From Planctomycetota bacterium (GTDB lineage: Bacteria; Planctomycetota; Brocadiia; Brocadiales; Bathyanammoxibiaceae), in the NCBI GenBank assembly GCA_023261505.1, contig JAHFOV010000009.1:3036-49621 (forward strand): a stretch of DNA of 46,586 bases, written 5' to 3'. Positions 22,646 to 35,545 of this stretch are shown here, piece after piece; within the stretch, counting starts at the first letter, position 1, and each line of letters begins with the position of its first letter. The notes beneath the pieces were generated by a model. It was not told the origin of the DNA and ran no database searches. It was given only the letters and a program-made list of their open reading frames with translations. A program made the position numbers and the translations under genes.

Positions 22646-23246
22646 GGGAGGGGCCAGGTGGCCGCCCGTTCGTCTGGCTGCAGGCGGACGAGAGGAAAGT
22701 CCGAGCTCCACAGGGCAAGGTGGTGGGTAACACCCACCGGGACCCTCGTAATGGGGGTCCTAGGGAAAGTGCCACAGAAAACATACCGCCCGTGAACTAG
22801 GGGTTAGAGGTTAGGGATCAGGGATTGGTGATTAGAAAACAATTGTTTGCCCCTGGCCCCTAGTCCCTAGTTTATGGGTAAGGGTGAAAAGGCGGGGGGG
22901 CCAATTAAGGCCCCTTAATGTAAGAGCCCACCGCAGTACTGGTGACAGTACTGGTTCGCGAAAGCGAATCCGCCAATCTTCGCCATTGGCGAATATGCCT
23001 TTGGCATGACTTTTGGCGGACACGGCAAACCCCACCTGGAGAAAGGCTAAATAGGGAGGGAAAGAAGTGGCCCGCTTCAAGGTTGTTTATTGTAGGGTGC
23101 GTCTTGACGCACCGTAATACATAATACGACATCCCTCCGGGTAAGCCGCTACGCTGAACCTCATCGGTTCAGGGCGAGGTAGTGGGCAACCACTACCCTA
23201 GAGTAATGGCCACTCACGACAGGACTCGGCTTATCGGCCCCTCCCC
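22646..23246 (+). ncRNA. rnpB: RNase P RNA, bacterial class A, enlarged
   Basis: Conserved cores GAGGAAAGTCCGAGCTCCACAGGGCA, GGGAAAGTGCCACAGAAAACATACCGCC, GGTAAGGGTGAAAAGG and ACAGGACTCGGCTTATCGG; P1 arms GGGAGGGGCC / GGCCCCTCCCC delimit the ends. Confidence 0.93.
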
Positions 23247-23405
23247 TTACCTTCTTGATATTCAGAGTTATATCTGTTTAGCCTCTCTCCTACACGCTCC
23301 TTTGCCATCTACTAAAAGATTGACTAAAATCTATGGCTAAAAGAGTAAATCCAATATAAAATAATAGGAAATGTTTCATATTTAATACTATAAGAGGTAA
23401 AAACC

Positions 23406-33752: not shown

Positions 33753-33932
33753 ATGAAAATGTTGGAACATCCTGTTACACTATTTGCAACAATAGAAGAA
33801 TCGCAGCACGAAGCACTACGGTATATTGCGTACAAGGAAAAGAAATCTATTGCGGAGATAGTCCGCGAGGCGCTTGAAGACTATATAAAGAATGTCTCCA
33901 AGAAATATCCCATACATGCGGGAAAGGCGTAA
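33753..33932 (+). CDS. 59-aa ribbon-helix-helix-like protein
   Basis: MKMLEHPVTLFATIEESQHEALRYIAYKEKKSIAEIVREALEDYIKNVSKKYPIHAGKA; RHH-like 'S-IAEIVREAL-DYI'. Below the ORF-track cutoff. Confidence 0.6.
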   Translation: MKMLEHPVTLFATIEESQHEALRYIAYKEKKSIAEIVREALEDYIKNVSKKYPIHAGKA

Positions 33933-33998: not shown

Positions 33999-34026
33999 TT
34001 GACTTTTTCTTAAAAACATATATGCT
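33999..34026 (+). promoter_or_regulatory. Putative promoter (TTGACT-16-TATGCT) upstream of the tiny-ORF region
   Basis: Boxes read directly in an AT-rich intergenic stretch. Confidence 0.45.
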
Positions 34027-34167
34027 GTTTATGAAACAGTAAAAGTTGCTACGTTTAATTAAGGGACTTAGATAAAGGAAGCTCGTGGACGCAGGCGAAG
34101 AAAGCTCTAGTAATAATCAATCGGACGCTGTTCCGCTTAAGTGGTCTGATACATTTCACACATCTAC

Positions 34168-34193
34168 GAAAAAGGTTTTACCTTTTTCTTTTT
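34168..34193 (+). terminator. Terminator/attenuator-like hairpin GAAAAAGG-TTTTA-CCTTTTTC + U-tract
   Basis: Perfect 8-bp stem followed by T5; A/U-rich so possibly weak. Confidence 0.4.
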
Positions 34194-34409
34194 GCATACC
34201 TCTAATTAAGTTTTACAGAAGTCCTACCACCTTTCATCATAGAAACAAGAGCAGGCTTCCAACGAAAACTTCATCAAGCAAACACCTCGCTTGTTCAACG
34301 TCCATGGGGAGACTAATTAGAAAATTTAAAGGGGTATGCGCTTGTTAGTAAAGTGCAGAGGGCGGCAAATTCTGAGACATCGAAACACAAAAATAAGGAG
34401 GCAATAGCG

Positions 34410-34439
34410 ATGAAGAAGGGCAAAGGTCCTAAGAAATAA
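34410..34439 (+). CDS. Tiny ORF 1, 9 aa: MKKGKGPKK
   Basis: ATG with upstream AAGGAGG; matches the other three tiny ORFs in pattern and spacing. Confidence 0.65.
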   Translation: MKKGKGPKK

Positions 34440-34494
34440 GTGTACAGGCTCTAGCAAATTTTTATGAAACCTCTTTAGAAAGGAAGTAATTGAA

Positions 34495-34530
34495 ATGAAG
34501 AAGTCGAAACCTTCTCCTAAGAAGAAGTAG
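34495..34530 (+). CDS. Tiny ORF 2, 11 aa: MKKSKPSPKKK
   Basis: ATG with upstream AAAGGAAG; same peptide pattern. Confidence 0.65.
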   Translation: MKKSKPSPKKK

Positions 34531-34581
34531 TTGCTGTTATAAACTATTGAAATATAAATTTTGCAGAAGGAGGTGATTGCA

Positions 34582-34614
34582 GTGAAGAAGAGCAAACCCT
34601 CTCCTAAGAAGTAG
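34582..34614 (+). CDS. Tiny ORF 3, 10 aa: MKKSKPSPKK
   Basis: GTG with upstream AAGGAGGTGAT; peptide equals ORF 2 minus one Lys, with different codons (AGC/TCG Ser, CCC/CCT Pro). Confidence 0.7.
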   Translation: MKKSKPSPKK

Positions 34615-34665
34615 CTTTACGTTCATGGAGCTAAGGAATAGAATCTTAGAATAGGAGGTGATCCA

Positions 34666-34701
34666 GTGAAGAAAGGCAAAGGATGTAGCCCTAAGAAATA
34701 G
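34666..34701 (+). CDS. Tiny ORF 4, 11 aa: MKKGKGCSPKK
   Basis: GTG overlapping the end of AGGAGGTGATCCAG; same pattern with a Cys. Confidence 0.7.
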   Translation: MKKGKGCSPKK

Positions 34702-34849
34702 GGTTCACGAAATTCGTCTTTTGTTAGGGAAGGATGATTTAAATAGTTCACTAGCCATATTAGTTCTCCTAAAGATGCTAGTCGTGGCATAGAGATGTAT
34801 TGTAAATCAAGTTTTAGTGCTCCTTCCCGAAGGATTTTCAAATCTAAAA

Positions 34850-34880
34850 GGGCATGCCTTAAATAGGCGTGCCCTTTTTC
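34850..34880 (+). terminator. Rho-independent terminator closing the tiny-ORF unit
   Basis: GGGCATGCC-TTAAATA-GGCGTGCCC followed by TTTTTC. Confidence 0.85.
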
Positions 34881-34927
34881 TTTCCCGACTGTAACTTTTG
34901 TATAAAATTTGACATGGCAGGAGTAAA

Positions 34928-35545
34928 ATGTTAAACTTCCCGCATTCCATGAAGCTAGATTTACTTTACATTACCTTTATTATCTTTTCTTATACCCTTT
35001 GGAACTCTCAGGCTTACGGAATTCAGCTAAAGTTGGATGAACGCAGTATAAAGGAGGCCGTTCAATATGGGTTTGATAACAAAGATCTTACCCATCCAGA
35101 GCTATTAAAGGCCTGGAGGATAGACCTTGGTTATGGAGTGGGTTCAGCCACACTAGTCACCCCTTATGGCGGTCTAATTATACTTGGCAAGGAATCTGCC
35201 CTTAAGTTCCGTAAACCTACAGAAACTGAAATAGAAAAAGAATTAGAAGAAAAGGTGGGAAAGCTCAGCTTTGGCTGCGGGCTTTATGGGGAAGAAATAG
35301 ATTTTGCCCCCGGTTGTAAGGCACTACTGGAGTACAAAGGTGAGAAGCGAGAGCCTATATATACAAACCTACCCGCTCCCGCCCGTTACACTAAAACTTA
35401 CCCTACTCCACCCAAGTACTGGGCCCTGTGCTTTTTCAGCTTTCCAATGGCAGGGATTAGTACCAATGATACAGTCACTCTTATCATAACAGACCCAAAA
35501 GGAAAAGAACTGAGATTCACCTTCGACCTCTCTAAATTAAAATGA
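34928..35545 (+). CDS. Hypothetical exported protein
   Basis: Signal-peptide-like N-terminus, 205 aa; overlaps the next gene by 4 nt. Confidence 0.65.
   Translation: MLNFPHSMKLDLLYITFIIFSYTLWNSQAYGIQLKLDERSIKEAVQYGFDNKDLTHPELLKAWRIDLGYGVGSATLVTPYGGLIILGKESALKFRKPTETEIEKELEEKVGKLSFGCGLYGEEIDFAPGCKALLEYKGEKREPIYTNLPAPARYTKTYPTPPKYWALCFFSFPMAGISTNDTVTLIITDPKGKELRFTFDLSKLK

Follow-up and report, generated by a model that had tools for sequence, protein, structure and literature searches.

In insects, the pri/tal gene produces one polycistronic RNA carrying three ORFs of 11 residues and one of 32, with a common LDPTG core (PMC3136413). Bacteria possess lysine-rich H1-like proteins, among them chlamydial Hc2 and AlgP with its tail, which are of low complexity and vary in length by repeats (PMC9239181, PMC2848022). 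The AlgP tail consists of KPAA repeats and resembles the C-terminus of H1 in composition; KPAA peptides have DNA-binding activity in vitro (PMC9239181). SPKK motifs, present in sperm H1/H2B tails, bind AT-rich minor grooves (PMC9903204). Finally, mccA is a real bacterial gene of only 7 codons (PMC6495379).

Here we describe an array of four gene-like ORFs of 9-11 codons, encoding near-identical Lys-rich peptides, in a member of Brocadiales (Planctomycetota). The array lies in a window of 46,586 nt, by which we mean the whole stretch of DNA analysed. Pri/tal is its closest counterpart by architecture only: the arrays have three to four tiny ORFs with a common core (MKKGKG or MKKKGG) between one putative promoter and one putative terminator, which would place them on a single RNA; there is no homology, and pri/tal is a eukaryotic developmental regulator whose LDPTG motif is not basic, whereas the array peptides are bacterial and of MKKGKG type. 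By product, the closest systems are bacterial H1-like proteins, which share with all units described below (compared by composition and net charge) a low-complexity character rich in Lys, Ala, Pro and Gly. Known H1-like proteins are, however, single chains 165-352 residues long, some of them including a folded domain, whereas the units reported here encode 7-37 residues, in many cases split over separate ORFs in tandem. Their longer forms matched neither Pfam (25, 33 and 37 aa) nor NCBIfam (22, 33 and 37 aa) at E<=0.1. SPKK occurs in three of the four window peptides, but the eukaryotic motif recurs along a single chain and is under the control of phosphorylation, and here it is not conserved across the family. 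The mccA product differs in being an antibiotic precursor with dedicated maturation enzymes; none were seen at our units, where the ORF copies are tandem. In open-access literature we found no bacterial tandem micro-ORF unit of such kind described, and the array form appears to be new.

The region comprises the following features, with notes on the two array-bearing genomes of a sister genus in the same family (G001 and G005, hereafter the relatives; the window's genome is G000). Energies are predicted for pairing with the anti-SD of the common bacterial 16S tail, which may differ from that of the host's own 16S.

33999..34026, + strand: putative promoter TTGACT-N16-TATGCT; TTGACA..TATGCT in both relatives, with spacing and most bases kept
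34029..34394, + strand: long leader of the predicted transcript (presumed start), predicted to be structured, of no Rfam family
34085..34107, + strand: conserved 5' RNA motif GTGGACGCNGGCGAAGAAAGYTC
34395..34401, + strand: Shine-Dalgarno 1, AAGGAGG, -11.1 kcal/mol
34410..34439, + strand: micro-ORF 1, MKKGKGPKK, ATG start; counterpart in relatives MKKGKGR
34480..34486, + strand: Shine-Dalgarno 2, AAGGAAG, weak, -7.2 kcal/mol
34495..34530, + strand: micro-ORF 2, MKKSKPSPKKK, ATG start
34567..34577, + strand: Shine-Dalgarno 3, AAGGAGGTGAT, -20.5 kcal/mol
34582..34614, + strand: micro-ORF 3, MKKSKPSPKK, GTG start; by position, counterpart in relatives MKKGKGKK/KR
34653..34664, + strand: Shine-Dalgarno 4, AGGAGGTGATCC, -24.3 kcal/mol
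34666..34701, + strand: micro-ORF 4, MKKGKGCSPKK, GTG start; counterpart in relatives MKKGKGCGSPKK/KR
34727..34828, + strand: 3' UTR hairpin GGGAAGGA / TCCTTCCC
34846..34885, + strand: putative intrinsic terminator of the array unit, AAAAGGGCATGCCT / AGGCGTGCCCTTTT, kept in both relatives
34909..34937, + strand: separate promoter-like site, TTGACA-N17-TAAACT, for the downstream gene; both relatives have a TTGACA site of similar form at this position

The four ORFs, their peptides (net charge +5 to +6) and their start-to-start spacing of 85/87/84 nt, as listed in the earlier note, were reproduced exactly, and so were the synonymous differences in Ser and Pro codons between ORFs 2 and 3. When the whole 46.6-kb window was searched on both strands for the succession SD, RTG-AAR-AAR and, within 14 codons, a stop, exactly four matches were obtained, all of them the ORFs of the array. 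Among 5000 dinucleotide shuffles of the 500-nt array region, 4991 contained no match, nine contained one and none contained even two, so the array is far beyond chance. Other points of that note need adjustment. The SPKK consensus holds in three ORFs, ORF1 ending in GPKK, and in the relatives SPKK is confined to the last ORF; the linkers, called unrelated, include a 21-nt, 76% repeat covering and preceding the SDs of ORFs 3 and 4; and the extent 34410-34701 is right for the ORFs, while the unit is larger, spanning about 34029-34885. The region is indeed intergenic and below gene-caller cut-offs, and no described match to it was found.

Judged from its sequence, the region is one stand-alone unit, composed of a sigma-70-type promoter, a structured leader, four SD-ORF modules and an intrinsic terminator, from which a single transcript would be expected. 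In all three genomes the array is followed by its terminator, after which a promoter-like site of its own precedes the next gene; the downstream gene therefore need not depend on the array transcript. Across 395 genomes of the phylum, exact matches to the first 20 nt of the 5' motif were confined to the three with the array, and five matches with a single mismatch occurred elsewhere. At the position of the 3' UTR hairpin, TCGGGA/TCCCGA pairing is possible in the relatives (by eye). The array unit matched no Rfam family at the gathering score in the window and eight loci, the window's only match being RNase P, and relaxed thresholds gave sub-threshold matches only, at terminator hairpins and once antisense in locus L021. 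In the consensus fold of the transcript, two-sided changes occur in 25 of 194 pairs, but as only three sequences were available and the covariation term was +1.33, we make no claim for a conserved fold, which lacks net covariation support.

Each ORF was said to have its own SD; all four do, that of ORF2 being weak. The SDs of ORFs 3 and 4 are predicted to exceed the best of the window's 27 genes (-14.8 kcal/mol) and also all 41 window ORFs of >=150 aa, the latter scored with their most favourable start (best -14.8 kcal/mol). Throughout the family's units, 18 of 25 micro-unit ORFs have a predicted SD that beats those of all larger window ORFs. Since lysine codons (AAR) are rich in purines, as SDs are, part of the resemblance between units could be convergent.

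Next, we consider the same locus in relatives, for which nine genomes of the family (G000-G008) were sampled. Between a BatB-type vWA gene and the gene preceding HgdB, both G001 and G005 carry a syntenic unit which keeps the promoter, the 5' motif GTGGACGCNGGCGAAGAAAG and the terminator, and which contains three micro-ORFs, MKKGKGR, MKKGKGKR/KK and MKKGKGCGSPKK/KR, each with an SD. Starts are kept between the genera with ATG/GTG interchange, while the linkers have diverged (start spacing of 200/94 and 199/94 in the relatives versus 85/87/84 in the window). Window ORF4 and its G005 counterpart, with one codon gap allowed, show seven base differences, six in third positions and the seventh being the GTG/ATG start; the few differences between G001 and G005 ORFs are two synonymous codons and two Lys/Arg exchanges. 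Window ORFs 2 and 3 share little with the ORFs of relatives except the motif, and their comparison with each other shows differences in first, second and third codon positions.

The earlier note had proposed selection on the peptide and named as evidence against it that close relatives had lost the frames or their starts or stops. No such loss was found: the reading frames persist in another genus together with their starts, stops and SDs, changes are mostly synonymous and linkers diverge, which supports the proposal. Read from these alignments, the conserved core is MKKGKG plus a basic C-terminus and not SPKK, and the array ORFs appear to rank among the smallest genuine genes. In G002, G003, G004, G006 and G008 the flanking genes lie only ~80-280 nt apart with no array between them, and in G007 a contig end conceals the place. 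Since five relatives have no unit at the batB locus, the array is not essential in the family.

Two neighbouring ORFs deserve mention. A 59-aa ribbon-helix-helix (CopG-type) protein is encoded beside the array at 33753-33932 of the window, with no toxin partner seen. It was rejected as a partner of the array: its gene adjoins the array in G000 and G001, is missing from the G005 locus and stands beside uvrA without an array in G007. In G001, a 104-aa ORF (L022:2476-2790) lies between the BatB and ribbon-helix-helix genes and is missing from the other loci read. A GGGGAGGCAAC SD-like stretch without a proper Lys ORF precedes the first ORF at L021:3779-3805 and L022:3435-3465, and is possibly a decayed copy.

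A more general pattern (SD, MKK and Lys before the stop), applied to 76 genomes of the class, revealed a second array in the sister genus. These units are situated between hisF and a gene for a FAD-dependent reductase-like protein. In G007 three MKKKGGKKK ORFs are arranged in 75-nt units, in G005 there are two ORFs (MKKKKGGKK and MKKKGGKR), and both arrays are framed by a TTGACA..TACAAT promoter and a perfect terminator. At the same locus, the window's genome has one 15-codon ORF, MKKTAKVAGKKGGKK, and the genus of G002, G006 and G008 has a single ORF of 25-37 codons (MAKKKAKKKAKRKAVKKKKAKGRCR, MAKKKAKKKAKKKVVKKKAKKKAKRKKAKGRCR and MAKKKAKKKVKRAVKKKAVKKKAKKKAKKKKAKKRCR), whose Lys/Ala-rich product resembles an H1 tail (MAKKKAKKKAKKK...RCR). 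Alignment of six genomes reveals a common TTGACA..TATAAT-type promoter, the SD AAGGAGGTGA and a GCGAAGRRGG..CCTTCTTCGC-type terminator, so that one common frame encloses ORFs of 8-9, 15 or 25-37 codons. In G001 the hisF locus is interrupted by a contig gap.

According to this alignment, the longer H1-tail-like polycation, rich in KAKK, and the separate micro-ORFs are alternative contents of one unit. Because arrays of 8-9-mers replace one peptide of 25-37 residues, several short peptides together can apparently substitute for a longer polycation, and it is this hisF series that ties the array to H1-tail-like basic peptides. The alternation is the strongest argument that the amount of short basic peptide is selected; the link concerns the sister unit and not the batB array itself, to which the argument would extend by analogy.

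The third kind of unit, a single MAKKKAA..KKKK gene of 11-22 codons, follows nrdG and precedes smc. Its ORFs are:

G004: MAKKKAAKKKK
G005: MAKKKAASKKKKK
G000: MAKKKAAAGKKKK
G003: MAKKAAKKKAKQKSKK
G007: MAKKKAASKKTAGKKKR
G001: MAKKKAASKKKTTKKTAGKKKR

In its first seven codons, nine of ten genome pairs (G003 excluded) differ in third positions only and the tenth shows no difference. Over the hisF and nrdG-smc loci together, 14 of 15 ORFs have a predicted SD of -17.5 to -18.8 kcal/mol, compared with -14.8 kcal/mol at best for the 41 larger window ORFs. Three unlinked loci (batB, hisF and nrdG-smc) thus carry Lys-rich units in one Brocadiales family; at least one unit is present in all nine sampled genomes by a census which rests on patterns and may miss members, and the window's genome holds all three kinds.

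Outside the family, the patterns used brought up no further array, whether applied to the class, to the 395 phylum genomes or to the GTDB collection. In the scan of GTDB collection contigs, arrays occurred in two MAGs only, which are G005 and G001; each of the other matches was a solitary one, the beginning of a longer protein, or a lone tiny ORF put down to chance. Matches outside the family among the 395 phylum genomes, part of which were checked, appeared by eye to be portions of larger reading frames or chance. As no phage DNA matched the array, a phage origin was rejected. Viral pattern scans yielded one and five contigs, mostly with starts of longer proteins.

What might the array do? 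On balance, we think that it probably consists of genes for free, disordered polycationic mini-peptides which would attach to nucleic acid or some other polyanion, with their dose determined by the array. A transcript would run from the promoter near 34000 to the intrinsic terminator near 34870, and each peptide would be translated from its own ribosome-binding site, giving four disordered, strongly basic 9-11-mers. These would act by charge, binding DNA, RNA or possibly polyphosphate in the manner of detached segments of the H1 C-terminal tail, and their dose would depend on the number and strength of the ORFs. We regard nucleic-acid binding by charge as the best mechanism, because tails of such composition bind DNA in bacteria and SPKK binds AT-rich minor grooves. 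Of the functions suggested in the earlier note, polycationic nucleic-acid binding gains indirectly, since the hisF promoter/terminator frame encodes an H1-tail-like peptide of 25-37 aa in a sister genus, and for the array itself it is a matter of analogy; a specific AT-minor-groove role through SPKK is weakened and not established, as SPKK is not the conserved core. Against the preferred reading speak the absence of the unit from the batB locus of five relatives, the possible convergence between units and the fact that the hisF link concerns a sister unit, and also the following points: 7-12-mers with charges of +4 to +6 should bind nucleic acid weakly when single, they could be degraded quickly, and the conserved leader (~365 nt, with its conserved motif) is not accounted for by a pure peptide-source model.

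Whether a chromatin-tail-like polycation is made here as tandem stand-alone ORFs of 7-12 codons with strong SDs, alternating at one locus with a longer H1-like gene, is in our estimate evenly balanced. If true, bacteria would have their own version of polycistronic micro-peptide genes, and protein-coding genes as short as 7-12 codons would be lying under annotation cut-offs. The natural series from 37 to 8 residues at one locus would then bear on the minimum working length of a histone-tail-like peptide. A concrete and cheap screen would look for a strong Shine-Dalgarno sequence plus a tiny Lys-rich ORF between promoter and terminator.

Several other explanations have to be weighed. Possible, if rather doubtful, is that the peptides are real and basic and their target is not DNA, so that they serve at the ribosome or its rRNA, on other RNA or on polyphosphate, as counter-ions or condensation agents. 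Their polycationic composition is generic, charge and rough composition are conserved while length is not, and H1-like AlgP localises to polyP granules (PMC9239181); on the other hand, the KA-rich homologues of 25-37 aa look like H1 tails and one locus adjoins smc, though adjacency proves nothing. We consider it unlikely that translation itself is the function, the ORFs being leaders or attenuators (sensing, for instance, charged tRNA-Lys) which control the downstream gene or the stability of their own RNA. Short Lys-rich ORFs in a structured leader with a terminator just downstream would suit such a role, and Salmonella mgtCBR has tandem attenuators with short ORFs (PMC3641672). Yet the promoter-like site of the downstream gene comes after the terminator, the hisF array stands alone between promoter and terminator and is replaced in sister species by an ORF of 25-37 codons, and the Lys codons are interspersed with Gly, Ala, Ser and Pro codons instead of forming a pure Lys run.

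Still less do we favour the RNA as the product, a structured ribosome decoy whose strong SDs would bind 30S subunits, with the micro-ORFs as by-products. Substitutions track codon positions, a leader of this sort is missing from the hisF and nrdG-smc units, and neither an Rfam family nor net covariation in the three-sequence consensus fold backs this possibility, which draws on the exceptional predicted SD strength and on the structured leader with its conserved 5' motif. Exported antimicrobial, signalling or RiPP-type peptides, two of these roles having been raised in the earlier note, are in our opinion very improbable. McC precursors carry a terminal Asn, which is lacking in the array peptides. 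Beside the units there is no modification, export or immunity gene, their neighbours being BatB, an HgdB-type protein, hisF, nrdG and smc; a Pfam scan of seven neighbours found no MccB-like nucleotidyl transferase or export gene; and the BatB/HgdB neighbourhood is conserved also in relatives without the array. This stands against the facts that cationic peptides may have antimicrobial activity and that the size range fits the 7-residue microcin C precursor (PMC6495379).

Similar mini-peptides may exist in phages: the phage-like contig IMGVR_UViG_3300020044_007975 contains a 13-codon ORF, MKKKGGKGGGKRC, with GGAGG 5' of its start (L150:1573-1614). A tiny basic ORF, MKKADKKARR, follows AGGAGGTGA on the minus strand of L233 (G004:C255:22075-22121), and a possible further ORF comes directly after it. 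Between the nrdG-smc micro-gene and smc there is a conserved promoter-to-terminator stretch of ~170 nt that bears GGGTGGC..TTTCAGAG motifs (L202:2760-2930; equivalent stretches in L155, L201, L212, L223 and L234), which matched no Rfam family in the loci scanned and is a candidate small RNA. Finally, at 22646-23249 the window encodes a class A bacterial RNase P RNA of 604 nt, ~240 nt beyond the 367-position model, with inserted stretches that look repeat-like by eye.
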